Positions 992-9,883 of a stretch of 22,619 nucleotides of DNA are shown piece after piece (position 1 is the stretch's first letter; each line of letters begins with the position of its first letter). Origin of the DNA: a virus; the IMG/VR virus record IMGVR_UViG_3300037493_000553, positions 1 through 22,619 of that record. One strand, given 5' to 3'. A program made the translations under genes and the position numbers. Below the pieces are notes generated by a model. The model did not search any database and was not told where the DNA came from. It saw only the letters and a list, made by a program, of their open reading frames with translations.

Positions 992-3028
992 ATGTCACGA
1001 ATCTCCAACGAACAGAGGCTGGCGAATGTCCATAGTGAGGCGTTGGCTGAGTTTGACAGTATTCAGTCTGCGCTGCGTGACGAGCGTTTGCAGTGTTTGC
1101 AGGACCGGCGGTTTTATTCGATTGCTGGCGCACAGTGGGAGGGGCCGCTGGGTGAGCAGTTTGAGAACAAGCCGAAGTTTGAGGTAAACAAGGTTGCTTT
1201 GGCGGTGCAGAGGATTCAGAGTGAGTACCGGAACAACCGGATTACGGTGAAGTTCACGGCCAAGGATGGGAGCAATAGCAAGCTGGCCGATATCTGCGAT
1301 GGGCTGTACCGGGCTGATGAACAGGATTCGGTGGCCGAGGAGGCGTATGACAACGCCTTTGAGGAGGCGGTGGGGGGTGGGTTTGGGGCTTGGGAGTTGG
1401 AGCCGAGTTACGAGGATGAGGAAGACCCTGAGAATGAGCATCAGCGAATCAAGATCAAGCCGATTTTTGATGCTGACAGTTCGGTGTTCTTTGACTTGGA
1501 GGCCAAGCGTCAGGACAAGGCCGATGCCAAACGGTGCTTTGTACTGGTGTCGATGACACGCGAGGCGTACAGGGAAACGTACAACGATGACCCATCGTCC
1601 TGGCCGAAGGACATTCATCAGTATGAGTTTGATTGGCTGACGCCGGATATTGTGTATGTGGCGCGGTATTACCGGGTTGAGGAGGTGGCTGAGACGATCT
1701 ATATCTATCAGTCGCTGGATGGTTCTGAGGAGCGGTATTCCAAGGAGCAATTGACGGATGAGATGCTGGAGCAGTTGTATGCCATCGGCAGCAGGGAAGT
1801 GCGTCAGAAGCGCATCAAACGGCGCAAGGTGCGTTTGTATGTAATGTCAGGCTCCAAGATACTGGATGACTATGGTTACATCGTAGGGCGCAATATCCCT
1901 GTGGTGCCGGTGTATGGCAAGCGGTGGTTCATTGACAACGTAGAGCGCTGCATGGGCCATGTCCGGCTGGCGAAGGATGCCCAGCGCCTGGGCAATATGC
2001 AGCGTTCCAAACTGGCTGAGATTTCGGCACTCTCAAGTGTGGAGAAGCCAATTTTCACGCCTGAACAGGTTGCAGGCCACCAGGTCATGTGGTCTGAGGA
2101 CAATCTCAAAAATTACCCGTACCTGCTGTTGAACCCGGTCAGTGGGCCGGATGGCAGTATGCAGATTTCCGGGCCGGCTGGGTACACCAAGCCCCCGGCA
2201 GTGCCGCCTGCACTGGCTGGATTGCTTCAAATCAGCGAACAGGACATGAAAGATGTTCTGGGCAATCAGGAGCAGGGCGACAAGATTGTGAGCAATATTT
2301 CTGGCCGTGCGGTTGAGATGGTGCAGCAGCGCCTGGATATGCAGACATATATCTATATGTCGAACCAGGGCAAGGCCATTCGCCGGTGCGGTGAGATTTG
2401 GCTTGGCATGGCAAAGGAGATGTACGTCGAAGATGGCCGCAAGATGAAGGCCATTAGCAACCAATCAAAGATTCAGACGGTTCAACTGATGAAGCCGATG
2501 ATCAATGAGTCTGGTGAGATGGAGTATGAGAACGACTTGAGCAAGGCTGATTTTGATGTGGCGGTGGACGTTGGGCCGTCGAGCAGCAGCAAACGTGCGG
2601 CTACGGTTCGCGCCCTGACCGGCATCATTGCCATCACGGAAGACCCGCAGATCAAGAATGTGTTGCTCTCAATGGCGATGATGAACATGGAAGGCGAGGG
2701 TCTGACCGACATCAACGACTATTTCCGCAGCCAACTGGTGCAGATGGGGGTTGTCAAGCCGACTGAGGAAGAACAAGCCCAGTTACAGGCCATGATGGAG
2801 AACAAGCCGCAAGACATGAATGCCATGTACTTGCAGGCCGAGGCTGAGAAGGCCATTGCCCAAGCCGAACAAGCCCGTGCCAAGACGGTGGAGACGGTGG
2901 CAAGTGCTGAACTCAAGCGCGCACAGACGATGGAAACCCTGTCCAATATGGACATGGACAGCCAAGACCATGCTTTGAACATGATGAAAGAAATGGTAAC
3001 GCCGCAGCAACTGGCACCAAGTCAATAA
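992..3028 (+). CDS. Portal protein, P22 gp1-like
   Basis: Dodecameric head-tail connector through which DNA is packaged and ejected. The 678 residues compare with about 725 in P22 portal. The N-terminal part (RRFYSIAGAQWEG, then FEVNKVALAVQRIQSEYRNN, residues about 40-80) has the typical start of P22-type portals. An acidic linker (YEDEEDPENE) lies near residue 140. The C-terminal 90 residues are an Ala/Glu/Gln-rich helix (AEAEKAIAQAEQARAK) consistent with the coiled-coil barrel that projects into the P22 head. The ATG at 992 follows the terminase stop by one base, with a weak GGAAG upstream, so translation is probably coupled. The first half shares the G/T-rich codon style of the terminase gene, which fades after roughly base 1750. 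It is followed by a structured 48-nt gap before the scaffold gene. Confidence 0.93.
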   Translation: MSRISNEQRLANVHSEALAEFDSIQSALRDERLQCLQDRRFYSIAGAQWEGPLGEQFENKPKFEVNKVALAVQRIQSEYRNNRITVKFTAKDGSNSKLADICDGLYRADEQDSVAEEAYDNAFEEAVGGGFGAWELEPSYEDEEDPENEHQRIKIKPIFDADSSVFFDLEAKRQDKADAKRCFVLVSMTREAYRETYNDDPSSWPKDIHQYEFDWLTPDIVYVARYYRVEEVAETIYIYQSLDGSEERYSKEQLTDEMLEQLYAIGSREVRQKRIKRRKVRLYVMSGSKILDDYGYIVGRNIPVVPVYGKRWFIDNVERCMGHVRLAKDAQRLGNMQRSKLAEISALSSVEKPIFTPEQVAGHQVMWSEDNLKNYPYLLLNPVSGPDGSMQISGPAGYTKPPAVPPALAGLLQISEQDMKDVLGNQEQGDKIVSNISGRAVEMVQQRLDMQTYIYMSNQGKAIRRCGEIWLGMAKEMYVEDGRKMKAISNQSKIQTVQLMKPMINESGEMEYENDLSKADFDVAVDVGPSSSSKRAATVRALTGIIAITEDPQIKNVLLSMAMMNMEGEGLTDINDYFRSQLVQMGVVKPTEEEQAQLQAMMENKPQDMNAMYLQAEAEKAIAQAEQARAKTVETVASAELKRAQTMETLSNMDMDSQDHALNMMKEMVTPQQLAPSQ

Positions 3029-3057: not shown

Positions 3058-3076
3058 AGACTGAAAGAGGATGAGC

Positions 3077-3895
3077 ATGGACGACGAAAACGAAGTGATT
3101 GACGACAACCAGCAAGTGAAGGACGCGCCGGAACTGGATGAAACTCCAGCGCCAGAAGGTGAGGAAACCACTACTGCCGAGGATGAAATTACCGTCCAGA
3201 TTGGCGATGAGCAGCCGGCAGAAGAAGAACGTGCGCCAGATTGGGTGCGTGATTTACGCAAGCAGCATCGTGAGTTGCAGCGCAAAAACCGGGAACTGGA
3301 AGAACAGATTCGCACTGCGCGGCCATCTGTATCGGTGCAGCTTGGCAAGAAACCAACGCTGGAAGACCACAATTACGACTCTGATGCCTACGAGGCGGCG
3401 CTGAGTGAATACTTTGAGCGCAAGCGTCAGGTGGATGCCGAGGCCGAGAAGATTGAAGCCAAGCAGCGCCAAACGCAGCAAGATTGGCAAGAAAAACTCA
3501 ACAGCTATGGCAAGGCCAAGGCTGAGTTGAAGGTCAGTGACTTTGACGATGCTGAATCGGCGGTACAAGAGCAATTCAATGTCACCCAGCAGGGTATTTT
3601 GCTCCAAGGGCTGGATACGCCTGCGATGGTGGTGTATGCCTTGGGCAAGAACCCAAAACGTGCAAAAGAACTCGCGGCAATCACCGACCCGGTGAAATTT
3701 GCTGTGGCAATCGGAAAACTGGAGGAGAAATTGAAAGTCATTCGCAAAGCCCCGCCACCCCCGCCAAAACCCGTAACCGGCACTGGCCGAGTATCTGGTT
3801 CGGTGGATTCCACACTGGAGCGTTTGCGCGCTGAAGCCGAAAAAACTGGTGATATCAGTAAGGTGCTTGCATACAAGCGCCAAAAACGTGCATAA
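3077..3895 (+). CDS. Head scaffolding protein (P22 gp8 positional equivalent)
   Basis: Assembly chaperone expected inside the procapsid, lost before or during packaging. The 272 residues compare with about 303 in P22 gp8. Layout: a strongly acidic N-terminus (to about residue 55), a charged helix (LRKQHRELQRKNRELEEQI, about 60-80), a second coiled-coil stretch (YFERKRQVDAEAEKIEAKQ, about 110-150), a Pro run (APPPPPKP), and a basic C-terminal helix ending AYKRQKRA. In P22, a basic C-terminal helix pair binds coat, and the same job is likely here. Two in-frame ATGs exist. The one at 3071 touches the Shine-Dalgarno AGAGG (3066-3070), whereas 3077 is 6 nt away, so 3077 is chosen. The call rests on position between portal and coat plus composition rather than a recognised domain. 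Confidence 0.85.
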   Translation: MDDENEVIDDNQQVKDAPELDETPAPEGEETTTAEDEITVQIGDEQPAEEERAPDWVRDLRKQHRELQRKNRELEEQIRTARPSVSVQLGKKPTLEDHNYDSDAYEAALSEYFERKRQVDAEAEKIEAKQRQTQQDWQEKLNSYGKAKAELKVSDFDDAESAVQEQFNVTQQGILLQGLDTPAMVVYALGKNPKRAKELAAITDPVKFAVAIGKLEEKLKVIRKAPPPPPKPVTGTGRVSGSVDSTLERLRAEAEKTGDISKVLAYKRQKRA

Positions 3896-3952
3896 TGTGA
3901 GCCATCAGGTTTCGCAAGCCTCATAAATTGCAGTGTGATCGAGCGGCCATCC

Positions 3953-4011
3953 GGCTCCAGAATGGATGAGTTAAGCGGCGATAAGCCTTTTTTCTCATCT
4001 ATTTTGGAGTC
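3953..4011 (+). promoter_or_regulatory. Long RNA hairpin burying the coat-gene Shine-Dalgarno
   Basis: GGCTCCAGAATGGATGAG (3953-3970) pairs without a break with CTCATCTATTTTGGAGTC (3994-4011): 18 consecutive pairs, three of them G-U (3954/4010, 3960/4004, 3964/4000). All three wobbles have G in the left arm and U in the right, so they would be C-A mismatches in a minus-strand RNA; the structure favours the + transcript. The 23-nt loop can form a further hairpin, GGC-GATAA-GCC (3977-3987), extended by A-U and G-U pairs. The coat ribosome-binding site GGAG (4006-4009) lies inside the right arm, and the hairpin ends 6 nt before the ATG. Pairing is seen directly. Whether it is a translational switch, an RNase III site or a protein-binding operator is unknown. 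Confidence 0.75.
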
Positions 4012-4017
4012 CATATC

Positions 4018-5292
4018 ATGGCAAACGCATTTAGCAAGGAAGAGCGCGTAGCGTTCGAAGACATTCTCGAAGGTTTCCAGGACGCTCTTGTCCTGTCGAA
4101 AAACGTAGCGACCTACAACACCGATCAGGTGATGATGGAGCGCACGAACAACATCATCTGGCGTCCGCAGCCGTACATCGCTACGAGCTACACCGGCACC
4201 GACATGACCAGCAACTTTGACGACTACACGCAGTTGTCCGTCCCCGCTACGATTGGCTTTCCCAAGTCTGTGCCGTGGGTGATGACCGCTACCGAACTGC
4301 GCGACGCCATGCAAGAGGGCCGACTCGGTGACGCTGCCAAGCAAAAGCTGGCATCCGACATCAACGTTGCTATCATGAACGTGGCTGCCGCTCAAGGCAC
4401 GTTGGTGGTCAAGCGCACTTCGACAGCCTCCGGGTTTGATGACGTTGCTCAGTGCGAGGCCGTCATGAACGAGCAAGGCGTCCCGATGTACGAGCGGTAT
4501 CTGGCTCTGTCCACACGCGACTACAACGGCATGGCGAATGACCTGTCCAAGGCTTCGCGCTCGTTCGGCAACGACATCAGCGACCGCGCTCTGCGCAAGG
4601 CTTTCGTGGGTGAGATGGCATCCTTTGCCACCTTCAAACTCGACTATGCCAACCGCAAGGCCGCTGCCGCTGGTGGTGGTTCGATCACGATTGACACGCG
4701 AGTGGCCGGCGCCAACTACTACACCCCGAAGGCAACTTCGACGGCAGCGACTGGCGAGACGAACAACGTGGACAACCGTTTCCAGACCGTGACTGTTTCC
4801 AGCACCACCAGCGTGGCCGCTGGAGACGCCTTCACGATTGCGAACGTCAACGCTGTGCATCACATCACCAAGGGTGACACCGGCCAACCGAAGACCTTCC
4901 GGGTCATCAGCGTGACCAACGGCACCACGATGGTCATCAGCCCCCCGATCATCAGCAACCAGGGTGCAACGGATGCCGAGGCTCAGTACCAGAACGTCGT
5001 GGTCAACGCTACCAGCGCCACCGCCGCGATTGTCTGGCTGAACACCGTCACCAACTACCTGAACCCGTTCTGGCAGCGTGATGCTCTGGAAATCCTGCCG
5101 GGCCGCTACGCTGTGCCGACCGATGCCGGTGCCGCAGTGCTGCGCGCTTCGACCGACCAGGGCATCGAGTTGGTGTGGCAGAAGCAGTACGACATCAACA
5201 CCATGAAGACCAAGTATCGCCTTGATACCTTGTTCGGCGTGGTGAACAAGCAGCCGGAAATGTCCGGTGTAATGTTGTTTTCGCAAACATAA
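4018..5292 (+). CDS. Major capsid (coat) protein, P22 gp5-like
   Basis: Main shell protein with the HK97 fold. The 424 residues compare with 430 for P22 coat. Recognisable P22-coat features: TNNIIWRPQPY near residue 43, corresponding to the SNTIWMP region of gp5; LASDINVAIMNVAAAQGTLV near 118-137; and VDNRFQTVTVSSTTSVAAGD near 251-270, which closely matches the gp5 segment VDNRFATVTLSATTG. The middle is long enough to hold the inserted I-domain of the P22 family. The ATG at 4018 has GGAG at 4006-4009, but that site sits in a long hairpin (3953-4011). Codon use is GGC/GGT- and C-rich, as expected of a highly expressed gene, and unlike terminase. Downstream, AAGGAA leads into the next head gene after a 9-nt gap. 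Confidence 0.95.
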   Translation: MANAFSKEERVAFEDILEGFQDALVLSKNVATYNTDQVMMERTNNIIWRPQPYIATSYTGTDMTSNFDDYTQLSVPATIGFPKSVPWVMTATELRDAMQEGRLGDAAKQKLASDINVAIMNVAAAQGTLVVKRTSTASGFDDVAQCEAVMNEQGVPMYERYLALSTRDYNGMANDLSKASRSFGNDISDRALRKAFVGEMASFATFKLDYANRKAAAAGGGSITIDTRVAGANYYTPKATSTAATGETNNVDNRFQTVTVSSTTSVAAGDAFTIANVNAVHHITKGDTGQPKTFRVISVTNGTTMVISPPIISNQGATDAEAQYQNVVVNATSATAAIVWLNTVTNYLNPFWQRDALEILPGRYAVPTDAGAAVLRASTDQGIELVWQKQYDINTMKTKYRLDTLFGVVNKQPEMSGVMLFSQT

Positions 5293-6130: not shown

Positions 6131-6438
6131 TTTTCCCGACCATCGTTTACCGTTGCCCTGGCGCACACTTTGGCCCGGATGGCAGCACGTTTAACTCCAT
6201 CGGCGCGGCTGATCTGGAGGCGTACGAGGCCGCGATTGCAGCCGGCTGGAGCGCCACCCTACCCGCTGCCGTCAAACTGTGGCGCAATGGCCCCGATGAG
6301 CCAAAGCCAGAGCCAGCCGATACCGCACCGCCGACACGCGATGAGATGCTGGAGCAGGCCGACAAACTCAAGATTCAGGTGGACAAGCGCTGGAGCGATG
6401 CCACCCTTCTGAAAAAGATCAATGAGGCCATGACATGA
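6127..6438 (+). CDS. Small head protein with C-terminal LEM/HeH-like helix pair
   Basis: 103 residues, starting with GTG in a GTGA overlap with the previous stop; AAAGGG (6115-6120) is 6 nt upstream and supports this start. The N-terminal part (IVYRCPGAHFGPDGSTFNS, then an AAIAAGWSATLPAAV segment) is a short motif seen in many phage head-region proteins. A Pro/Glu-rich linker follows, then residues about 69-103 (RDEMLEQADKLKIQVDKRWS onward) look like the small helix-extended-loop-helix fold (HeH/LEM/SAP-like) found in phage head-assembly and DNA-associated proteins. The role is unknown, probably a minor virion or assembly protein. Its end overlaps the gp4-like start by ATGA. Confidence 0.7.
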   Translation: MIFPTIVYRCPGAHFGPDGSTFNSIGAADLEAYEAAIAAGWSATLPAAVKLWRNGPDEPKPEPADTAPPTRDEMLEQADKLKIQVDKRWSDATLLKKINEAMT

Positions 6439-6914
6439 GCTACAGCAAGCGCCAATTCGTCACCGCTGCGTTCGAGGAGATTGGGCTTGCGTCTTACGTT
6501 TTCGACCTTCAACCCGAGCAACTTGATTCTGCCGTTCAGAAACTGGACAGCATGATGGCCGCTTGGAATGCCGCAGGCATCCGGCTCAGTTACCCCATTC
6601 CCGGCAACCCTGACAACACGGACATCGACGCCATCACGAACGTACCCGATTCGGCCAATGAGGCCATCGTCATGAGTTTGGCCGTGCGACTGGCCCCAGG
6701 CTTGGGAAAGGCTGTCAGCATCGACACCAAGGTGAGCGCGAAGCAGGGCTACAACACGCTACTGAGCCGCGCCGCTGTGCCGCCACAAATGCAGTTCCCG
6801 TCGAATATGCCTGCCGGTGCAGGTAACAAGCCTTGGAGCATTGACGACCCATTCTTGGTCGATCCCGTCGATGCGCTTTTGGCCGGCCCTGACGGCGACA
6901 TTCAATTTACCTGA
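6435..6914 (+). CDS. Tail accessory factor, P22 gp4-like
   Basis: In P22, gp4 forms a ring below the portal, making the first part of the head-tail junction; it is 166 residues, compared with 159 here. The N-terminal pattern (helix, then LDSMMAAWNAAGIRLSYPI, residues about 37-56) matches gp4's DLEAMMAEWYQDGI region. The diagnostic segment FPSNMPAGAGN (121-131) corresponds to YPSRMPTGSGN in gp4. The middle helix LAVRLAPGLGKAVSI matches the gp4 ACRIAPDYALEA region. The start overlaps the previous stop (ATGA) with GAGG 7 nt upstream, so expression is probably coupled. This is one of the most secure P22-family matches here apart from coat and gp10. Confidence 0.9.
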   Translation: MSYSKRQFVTAAFEEIGLASYVFDLQPEQLDSAVQKLDSMMAAWNAAGIRLSYPIPGNPDNTDIDAITNVPDSANEAIVMSLAVRLAPGLGKAVSIDTKVSAKQGYNTLLSRAAVPPQMQFPSNMPAGAGNKPWSIDDPFLVDPVDALLAGPDGDIQFT

Positions 6915-6923
6915 GGTTTCACC

Positions 6924-7376
6924 ATGCCACAAATCAATCAACTGTCTGCCGTGGACGAGGTTTTTGCAGGCGATGCGGTTCCGATTTACAGCAACGACAA
7001 CGGCGATGCTCGGCGCGCTTCCATGTCCGTCATCCGCGCGTTCATGCAAACCGGCCTGACCACCGAAGAAAAGGTGACGCAGTACGCCGCACCCAGCGCC
7101 ACCGGGTTCTCGGTGCAAGTCACGGATGGCAGCGATAGCGTCTGGCTGGTGCTTACGCCTACCGCTACCTTTGCCGCTGGCACGATTGTTCTGCCGGCCG
7201 TGGCGAACTGCGTGGACAAGCAAGAGCTATTGCTGAACTGCACTCAGATCGTTACCGCGCTGACCGTATCCGGCAACGGCGCAACAGTGACCGGCGCACC
7301 GACCGCGCTGGCAGCAAACGGGTTTTTCAGGCTCCGATTCGATGACGCTACAAACGTCTGGTATCGGGTAGGTTAA
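6924..7376 (+). CDS. Small beta-rich virion protein of unknown role
   Basis: 150 residues. The N-terminal 45 residues (QINQLSAVDEVFAGDAVPIY, then SMSVIRAFMQTG) resemble the attachment segments found at the start of phage tail-fibre-like proteins. From about residue 55 the protein is beta-rich and ends FFRLRFDDATNVWYRVG, a pattern also seen at the end of the 203-aa head protein and common at C-termini of small trimeric phage fibres. The start has TGAGGT upstream and follows the gp4-like stop by 9 nt. Position between gp4 and the large repeat protein suggests a minor virion component, perhaps a small fibre. No named domain is recognised. Confidence 0.65.
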   Translation: MPQINQLSAVDEVFAGDAVPIYSNDNGDARRASMSVIRAFMQTGLTTEEKVTQYAAPSATGFSVQVTDGSDSVWLVLTPTATFAAGTIVLPAVANCVDKQELLLNCTQIVTALTVSGNGATVTGAPTALAANGFFRLRFDDATNVWYRVG

Positions 7377-7399
7377 TTTGCCAATTTTTAGGGGGTAAT

Positions 7400-9883
7400 A
7401 TGGCAGACATCATCAAGAGCTACAACGATGTAGCGCGGCGCAATGTGGACATGAACGACGGCACTTATGCCGAAGTTATCAGCGCCATCGCCAACAACAT
7501 CACCAACAAATTCCGCGAGTCGTTTGAGACTTACGATCCCGTCAACGGTGGTCGATGGAGGGAATCCAAAGCCAGCGGCGACCTGATCTATGTGGACGGC
7601 AACGCTGCGGCAGCGTCTTATCTGACGATCAGCAAAGACCCATTGTCAGCAGACACGGAAAGCTCGATCACATCCATCGGCGTGGTTGGCCTGCCCATCG
7701 AGGCGGCTATCGGCCTGTCCATGTCTCAGCGCACTCTGGGGCAAGAGTTCTCCATTGAGATGATCGACACCGGCCTACCGTTGGTTGATGTGCCTGATGT
7801 TGCCATCTCCAGCATCACGCAAGCCACCACCACATTGACCGTGGACACGACGACAGCGCACGGTCTGAGCATCGGCAAGTCCATCGGCATCTCGGGATGC
7901 TCCAACCCCATCGCAAACTACCCTGCGCTGGTGGTTGCTACGGTGCCAAGCCCTACGCAATTCACCGCAACCGCTGGCCCTGGCGGCACCATCCCCAGCC
8001 AGACGATCACCAACCCGGCAGGCGCGAAGGGTTCGGTCTACTTCCGCGAGCGTTTGGGCCGCGCGCAAAACGGCATCAGCGAGATTTTCGAGCAGCCAAC
8101 GGCCACCCAGGCTTCGCTCTACATTCGCTCGGAATCCGGCGATGCCCTGATGTCCGGCACCATCGCAGGCAACCACAGCGCGACCGTTGGCACGACCGCT
8201 CCGGTGCAGTTGGTCAACGCTGCCTACACCTACGCCTTTGCGCCTACCACCGAGTACCGGTTGTTTGTGCAGGCTGATCGCACTCAGTGGGCTGATAGCG
8301 CTGTGGATGCGGTGGCTCAGACCACCTCGCGCCTGCTGCGCACCCAGGTCTGCCCCGACCCGGGCGAAACCTACAAAGTGCGCATCCGCGCCACCAACAA
8401 CAAGGCGCTGACGGTCCCGAATGCCCAGATTGTGTCTGCCGTCAAAACCGGCACCACCACAGCCACCATCGTGACTGACGTTGCGCATGGCTTGTCTACG
8501 ACTGATGTGGTGACCATCTACGGCATCCGCGACCAGGCCGCCGCATCCTTCCCGAACCTGCTCACCGCCACAACCGTTGCTTCAATTGTCAGCCCCACCT
8601 CTTTCACCATCGTCATCGGAACGGCCAGCACCGTCACCAGCTACGGCGGCTATGTCGCTCGGGTGCAGGGTGGTAACCTGCCGTCAGCCTTGGGCCACAG
8701 CGCGGTCATCGCGCAGTCTGCGATTCTGTCCACCCTGTCGGATGGCATTCGGCAACTGGTGGTGACGGGTAACACCAATTGGGCCAGTTTGTCCATTGGC
8801 GACTTGGTGAACCTTGTTGGCGTTCGCAACAACACCACCGGCGCAACACTTGGCGTCGATGGTGCTTGGAAGGTGGCGAACGTGGCGACCACGGCACTGA
8901 CGCTGGTTCTGCCTTATGCCGGTAGCCTGACGCTGCCGGTTGACTTTGGCTCCATCAACTGCGGCGGCGGCGTCATCAAGCGCACCGACCTGCGTGTCAG
9001 CTTCCTGCGTGTGTTCGACTACGAGCGCGAGCGCGTCGAACTGCTGGCCCGTCCGGCTGGTGACTTGGCGGCTGCCGTGCCTGTAGCGATGCAGGGCGGC
9101 ACACTGACAACACTGTCCACCGTGACGACTGTTTCCACAGTAACCGCCTTGACGGGCGGCGGCGCTGCCGAAGATGCGGCGGCTGGTGCGAACCCGGTTA
9201 CCGTTGGCGGTGTGGTGCGGTCTGCGGTAGCCCCGACGACCTTGGTGGCTGGTGACGCTGCCCGTATCACGATGACAACCGGCGCGGCCGCGGTCATGCA
9301 TCCGTTCTCTGTGCCTGAGGTTTCTTGGCAGACGCCGGCCCCTATTGGCGGCATTGTCAACACCGCTACAGCATTCCAGATCAAGGAAGCGGCTGGCGCA
9401 TTGCTGCGGAACTACATCGCAAGCATCGACTTTTACAGCGAAACACTGACCAACGCCACAGATCTGCGTGTGCGTGAGCCTGACCTTACCTGCGCCTCGC
9501 AGACCATCGCCACCAACATCTTGACCGTCAGCACTACGCACAATCTGGGCATTGGCGATGCTGTGGTGTTCACGGCCAGCACAGTGACGGGTATCACGGC
9601 AGGCGTGACCTACTTTGTGCTGACGACACCGGCAGCGACGACCATCACACTGTCGGCAACGCGCGGCGGCGCAACGCTGGCGATCTCGGGAACCGGTGTA
9701 ACAGCCACATTCCACAAGGTGCTGTGGCAGACCCGCATCCCGACGACCGGCATGGTGCCTCGTCAGATTGACTTTCCGGTTCCCCTGCGCGGCTCGGTCA
9801 ACACGGCAACCCAGGTGCAGACCGCCACAGCTTCCGGCGCTGGTGCTGTGTTCTTGGCGGCTCAAGGCTTCGTATCTCAATAA
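7400..9883 (+). CDS. Large modular beta-repeat virion protein with FCCH-like modules
   Basis: 827 residues with no signal peptide. At least two, probably four, related modules of about 65-75 residues share the pattern T-x-T-V-(8-10)-HGL-(2)-G/T-D-x-V-(5)-G and end in TxFT(I/A). Module 1 begins near residue 134 (TAHGLSIGKSIGISG), module 2 near 341 (VAHGLSTTDVVTIYG), a looser copy near 452 (LSIGDLVNLVG), and a fourth near 697 (THNLGIGDAVVF). Such modules are often matched to the E1 FCCH-type beta-barrel in phage structural proteins. Strand-rich linkers with Thr/Ala/Gly runs lie between them (VSTVTALTGGGAAEDAAAG near 577-595). P22 has no such gene between gp4 and gp10. AGGGGGT precedes the ATG. 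It is likely a head-vertex or tail-fibre-like appendage or an adaptor; the exact role is unknown. Confidence 0.75.
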   Translation: MADIIKSYNDVARRNVDMNDGTYAEVISAIANNITNKFRESFETYDPVNGGRWRESKASGDLIYVDGNAAAASYLTISKDPLSADTESSITSIGVVGLPIEAAIGLSMSQRTLGQEFSIEMIDTGLPLVDVPDVAISSITQATTTLTVDTTTAHGLSIGKSIGISGCSNPIANYPALVVATVPSPTQFTATAGPGGTIPSQTITNPAGAKGSVYFRERLGRAQNGISEIFEQPTATQASLYIRSESGDALMSGTIAGNHSATVGTTAPVQLVNAAYTYAFAPTTEYRLFVQADRTQWADSAVDAVAQTTSRLLRTQVCPDPGETYKVRIRATNNKALTVPNAQIVSAVKTGTTTATIVTDVAHGLSTTDVVTIYGIRDQAAASFPNLLTATTVASIVSPTSFTIVIGTASTVTSYGGYVARVQGGNLPSALGHSAVIAQSAILSTLSDGIRQLVVTGNTNWASLSIGDLVNLVGVRNNTTGATLGVDGAWKVANVATTALTLVLPYAGSLTLPVDFGSINCGGGVIKRTDLRVSFLRVFDYERERVELLARPAGDLAAAVPVAMQGGTLTTLSTVTTVSTVTALTGGGAAEDAAAGANPVTVGGVVRSAVAPTTLVAGDAARITMTTGAAAVMHPFSVPEVSWQTPAPIGGIVNTATAFQIKEAAGALLRNYIASIDFYSETLTNATDLRVREPDLTCASQTIATNILTVSTTHNLGIGDAVVFTASTVTGITAGVTYFVLTTPAATTITLSATRGGATLAISGTGVTATFHKVLWQTRIPTTGMVPRQIDFPVPLRGSVNTATQVQTATASGAGAVFLAAQGFVSQ

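Follow-up and report, generated by a model that had tools for sequence, protein, structure and literature searches.

Little is known about how double-stranded DNA phages time and dose their major capsid protein. They need no other product more, and it can misassemble if its synthesis is mistimed. A coat gene of the P22 type lies in the 22,619-nt stretch of viral DNA analysed here (the window; IMG/VR virus record IMGVR_UViG_3300037493_000553, positions 1 to 22,619). The original prediction had placed over its Shine-Dalgarno sequence a stem of 18 bp (here P5), composed of 15 Watson-Crick and three G-U pairs with every wobble G on the left and U on the right, and this was reproduced exactly; the position of GGAG in the right arm, the 6 nt between the end of the stem and the ATG at 4018, and the 122-nt gap between the scaffold stop at 3895 and the coat start were also reproduced (Table 1). 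When the RNA of 3896-4040 (145 nt) was folded against dinucleotide shuffles, as the prediction had proposed, the minimum free energy was -52.8 kcal/mol compared to -37.2 +/- 3.7 kcal/mol for 200 shuffles (z = -4.3), none of which (0/200) was equally low. P5 is the longest uninterrupted short-loop stem of the window with both strands considered, and in 20 mononucleotide shuffles of the whole window the longest stem measured 12-17 bp and never reached 18.

The unbroken 18 bp is found only in the window phage and its near-twin L001, and P5 is interrupted in the other relatives. Compensatory changes across these relatives keep the pairing, which supports the proposal of a sense-strand RNA element over the coat ribosome-binding site. 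In an alignment of 53 elements the P5 pairs on the Shine-Dalgarno side vary between GC, GU, AU, CG, and UA, and the apical hairpin P4 (helix 6) has both-sided changes at all four of its pairs. In the right arm, U frequently faces G or A (column 149), in keeping with the remark about the orientation of the wobbles. Together with the six U that follow it (3988-3993), P4 resembles a weak intrinsic terminator inside the coat leader of the window phage, a feature shared by certain clades only. An intrinsic terminator (GGC-GAUAA-GCC-U6) as the role of the element was rejected, since it is confined to those clades and the U-run is not conserved.

The stem was correctly seen, but two tandem pseudoknots upstream of it, one of which excludes it, as well as a predicted promoter were missed in the original prediction, and the conserved element starts about 45 nt upstream of 3953-4011. 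Both pseudoknots, PK1 and PK2, follow one minimal H-type design, S1 - NNC - S2 - R (purine) - S1' - loop - S2' - AG, and the tandem arrangement occurs once in the window.

Table 1. Features of the coat leader and its surroundings in the window.
Feature	Position	Strand	Detail
Scaffold gene, upstream neighbour	3071..3895	+	By position; scaffold annotated there in relatives
Predicted sigma70-like promoter	3867..3896	+	-35 TTGCAT 3867-3872, 18-nt spacer, -10 CATAAT 3891-3896
PK1, H-type pseudoknot	3907..3933	+	AGGU-UUC-GCA-A-GCCU-CAUAAAU-UGC-AG; S2 paired in 53/53
PK1 S1	3907-3910 with 3918-3921	+	
PK1 L1	3911-3913	+	UUC
PK1 S2	3914-3916 with 3929-3931	+	
PK1 junction; A-rich loop; terminal AG	A3917; 3922-3928; 3932-3933	+	
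PK2, H-type pseudoknot of the PK1 design	3941..3970	+	GAGC-GGC-CAUCC-G-GCUC-CAGAAU-GGAUG-AG; S2 paired in all scorable cells
PK2 S1	3941-3944 with 3954-3957	+	GAGC with GCUC
PK2 L1	3945-3947	+	GGC
PK2 S2	3948-3952 with 3964-3968	+	CAUCC with GGAUG
PK2 junction; loop; terminal AG	G3953; 3958-3963; 3969-3970	+	
P5 left arm	3953..3970	+	Same bases as PK2 junction, S1', loop, S2', and AG; from pairing and shared-base table
P4 apical hairpin, then U6	3973..3991	+	GGC 3977-3979 with GCC 3985-3987
P5 right arm	3994..4011	+	Holds Shine-Dalgarno; P5 cells 78-96% paired, figures favoured by the A3 alignment having been fitted to P5
Shine-Dalgarno GGAG of coat gene	4006..4009	+	Predicted unpaired probability ~0.00 in full-length RNA
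P22-type coat protein gene, regulated target	4018..5292	+	Pfam PF11651, E 6e-92

The pseudoknots are supported by covariation in helices that had no part in building the alignment. PK1-S2, PK2-S1, and PK2-S2 were absent from the covariance model that aligned the 53 elements, and standard pairs occupy 95% of the pseudoknot cells, compared to 22-45% when the partners are slid by 1-3 columns. Cells changed on both sides number 84 in the pseudoknot helices as against 29 in shuffles, which ignore the kinship of these related sequences. The varying pair of PK1-S2 is CG in 41 elements, UA in seven, GC in three, and AU in two, with no exceptions, and the two varying pairs of PK2-S1 are AU (27) or GC (23) and CG (29), UA (11), or UG (9). 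In PK2-S2, where several columns are invariant, the varying pair is CG in 26 and UA in 18 elements. Reading PK1-S2 as four base pairs (GCNA:UNGC) was tried and abandoned, because the fourth pair fails in 23 of the 53; its A is therefore assigned to the junction, in line with PK2. Outside the helices, the C that ends L1, the purine junction, the terminal AG, and the A-rich loop of PK1 are conserved. One clade carries GGGUGAGUAA, which resembles a stretch of 16S rRNA; the resemblance was dismissed, since other clades are without GGGUGAGUAA.

In a register-free scan of 68 leaders, 66 had one module or more and 52 at least two, against a background of 0.03 per dinucleotide-shuffled leader. The two modules of L290 as well as the CGCAUG/CAUGCG modules of L314 indicate that the same kind of module occupies both positions. 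Canonical PK1 is missing from the leaders of L053 (2748-3000), L310, L314, and L267, which contain two or three tandem modules (three in L053), and this suggests module duplication and replacement. The weak model score of L053, which has the longest gap, follows from the loss of canonical PK1.

Because the left arm of P5 is the 3' half of PK2, the two structures are mutually exclusive, and in the 53-element alignment both are conserved despite sharing bases. At column 68 the triplet of PK2 partner, shared base, and P5 partner is A-U-A in 22 and G-C-G in 15 elements, and 42 of the 53 can form either pairing; at columns 80, 82, and 83 all 53 can do so. The leader thus has what characterizes a translational RNA switch, namely two exclusive conserved structures of which one sequesters the Shine-Dalgarno, with three-way covariation, and of the roles considered in the original prediction it is the switch that this sharing of bases supports, while a static operator hairpin for coat or scaffold protein becomes less likely than a two-state switch. 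With PK1 held folded, the predicted pairing in the window phage is 0.96 for the PK2 stem in nascent RNA and 1.00 for P5 in full-length RNA (medians of the 53 members, 0.76 and 0.996). Folding without this constraint gives 0.14 and 1.00 for the window phage and medians of 0.50 and 0.99, and in some GC-rich members (L181, L170, L205, and L244) unmasked folding leaves P5 below 0.2. Averaged over members, the predicted unpaired fraction of the Shine-Dalgarno in full-length RNA is about 20%.

The element is present in at least about 100 distinct phage or prophage leaders, each time directly before a P22-type coat gene. DNA-pattern scans of IMG/VR contributed many of them; among the matches listed, the true ones lead to such a gene, and the matches in other gene contexts were rejected as chance occurrences within coding sequence. 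A search of 20 long phage records in full found exactly one copy in 14 and none in six. A covariance model built from 34 elements and run on whole genomes picked up members outside its training set (E 1e-9 to 7e-24), namely in a Burkholderiales MAG, an alphaproteobacterial MAG, and two others; it also recovered additional members upstream of more divergent coats. The coats of element bearers range down to about 36% identity to the window coat in L148, whose leader at 6136-7455 (- strand) has canonical PK1 and PK2, while much closer coats are without the leader. Eighty IMG/VR contigs with coats 76-98% identical fall into two classes, one with a scaffold-coat gap of about 27 nt or less and no element, and one with a gap of 104-253 nt and the element. 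The loss of pairing in relatives that retain the coat gene, named in the original prediction as a possible refutation, therefore has a divided outcome: leaders with long gaps keep the pairing through compensation, but many close relatives lack the whole element. Phages without it have scaffolds of the same kind and coats 85-92% identical to the window coat, and on the coat tree the presence label needs eight changes, at least six of them forced by well-supported branches. This distribution points to a cassette that is gained and lost rather than to a fixed coat operator.

Phage P22 (Lederbergvirus) has the same order of scaffold and coat genes as the window; unlike the window, P22, Sf101, IME_EC2, and C130_2 have short scaffold-coat gaps, and model R1 found no element in these four, with one chance-level match away from the leader. 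A DNA search of GenBank phages with two leaders gave no match and the full element was not found there; a single PK2-like module, in diverged form, occurs in Sphingopyxis phage VSN-002. Beyond the copies already known, no non-phage copy was present in about 700 Burkholderiales and Sphingomonadales genomes. A prophage-like locus of Sphingomonas sp. SRS2 (L256, 98.5-kb contig, 2890-3003) retains a diverged 3' half of the element and, being in the genome of a named isolate, could serve as a laboratory system.

Taking the sequence and the modeled folding together, we consider the 5' leader of the coat mRNA to be probably a bistable RNA switch that acts in cis and is ON while the pseudoknots hold. 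The predicted -10 overlaps the scaffold stop, so that transcripts would begin a few nt upstream of PK1, and if this promoter is real the coat gene is predicted to have its own mRNA starting at PK1. A promoter-like match is found in 79% of the 53 elements (shuffle p<=0.1), with about a fifth lacking a clear promoter; in most cases 7-17 nt separate the end of the -10 from PK1, and the mean promoter score is 7.6 in the elements vs. 4.5 in element-less leaders. Transcription from it would form PK1 first and PK2 next. As long as PK2 stands, its loop and 3' strand would be kept from the right arm and the Shine-Dalgarno would stay open, which is why we infer PK2 to be the ON state; once PK2 comes apart, its bases would be free to form P5 with the right arm, sealing the site (OFF). 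Since P5 is far more stable, coat translation would be limited to newborn mRNA or would depend on something that holds PK2. The conserved non-helical positions and the tandem copies argue for a module that is recognized, presumably by a trans-acting protein or a small ligand. Whether the tandem H-type pseudoknots constitute a new class of leader RNA, being sensors for one particular assembly protein or small ligand whose binding would switch on synthesis of the major coat by taking the strand that seals the Shine-Dalgarno, seems to us evenly balanced.

Leader switches over a Shine-Dalgarno are a known kind of regulation, of which the element is a variant. The coat operators of MS2, Q-beta, and PP7 are single hairpins at the replicase start of RNA phages; they share with the element a structured RNA at a phage gene start and possible control by a structural protein, whereas the element is a two-state leader of dsDNA phages. 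Its nearest working analogue is the gene 32 leader of T4, T2, and RB69, likewise a phage gene leader, in which an H-type pseudoknot well upstream of the start codon acts on translation, and which, according to a review, may be alone among viral pseudoknots in serving translational autoregulation (PMC3014915). If our reading is true, the element adds to the few cases in which viral pseudoknots control translation. In the gene 32 leader, however, a single pseudoknot is followed by unstructured A+U-rich RNA, with no competing stem that seals the Shine-Dalgarno, and it serves a single-strand DNA-binding protein with a known repressor instead of a coat gene with a sealed, structured ribosome-binding site. 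The preQ1-I and other H-type pseudoknot riboswitches are small as well and control access to the Shine-Dalgarno, and in preQ1-I the 3' strand of P1 is immediately preceded by UC or AC (PMC11625349). The element differs in the purine junction after C (CA or CG in most members), in its tandem copies, and in a distinct sequestering stem that is built out of strands of the knot itself. Three leaders scanned against Rfam gave nothing credible, the preQ1 families did not match at E up to 5-10, and no described RNA family was found to match the tandem-pseudoknot design. The original prediction knew of no such element at P22-type coat genes, and none was found in the open-access literature searched; a conserved coat-leader element of tandem pseudoknots thus appears to be undescribed. 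A conserved switch dedicated to the coat gene, which numerous environmental phages carry and laboratory P22 lacks, would make the timing and dosing of capsid protein testable with a 120-nt reporter.

Several other explanations have to be weighed against the switch. It is possible, though we hold it only tentatively, that the leader is an autogenous or cross-protein operator, its tandem modules being bound by coat or scaffold protein so that coat translation is repressed or activated. Coat output would then be tied to the state of assembly, as with the coat operators of phages or the gp32 pseudoknot of T4. A module that recurs in tandem with a conserved loop start and 3' AG resembles protein sites, only the coat gene is served (among the matches listed and the long records), and the gene 32 leader provides a precedent for a pseudoknot operator (PMC3014915), but closely similar coats and the same kind of scaffold do without the element in many phages. 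More doubtful is a kinetic timer that needs no effector, where newborn mRNA would be translated until it relaxes to P5, so that coat synthesis follows transcription. The MS2 maturation gene offers a comparison for it, and both the large gap in stability between P5 and the PK2 stem and the transcription of PK2 before the right arm fit; the identical fixed non-helical bases in both pseudoknots and the conservation of PK1, which lies outside P5, would however be left unexplained.

A metabolite riboswitch, in which each pseudoknot is a small aptamer and ligand binding holds PK2 and opens the Shine-Dalgarno, is unlikely. Size and topology are like those of known H-type pseudoknot riboswitches, the sequestor/antisequestor layout is classical, and L1 ending in C, the purine junction, and the terminal AG are conserved, but no Rfam family matches, metabolite control would be odd for a late structural gene, and the genomes of the two bacterial orders searched yielded no non-phage copy. 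It is quite improbable that the element serves mRNA processing or stability, with P5 as an RNase III site and PK1 as a protector of the 5' end. P5 with P4 does form a long duplex in the window phage and PK1 would stand at the 5' end if the promoter prediction is right; across the family, however, the pairing to the Shine-Dalgarno is conserved and the long unbroken duplex is not, which also makes the plain RNase III site of the original prediction less likely. A chance hairpin that merely lowers translation would agree with the many relatives that do without the element, but it is contradicted by the folding z-score and the family-wide covariation and hardly deserves belief.

Concerning the genes around the proposed switch, a Pfam search of the ORF in the scaffold position gave no match, and a search of about 3 kb around the coat gene revealed no partner gene that tracks the element. 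A glycine-rich ORF (MARLGAFNPILEPKAWFDAKVLPEG...) about 2 kb upstream of the coat gene is present in nine of 31 element-bearing and none of 38 element-less loci, a distribution that probably reflects lineage and not linkage. In L087 and L200 (both on the - strand), an HNH/endonuclease VII-like ORF of 161-163 aa lies between the Shine-Dalgarno of the element and the coat gene. Since the nuclease ORF directly follows the element in both, the element would drive the nuclease there, and the arrangement resembles an insertion of the homing type at the coat gene start.
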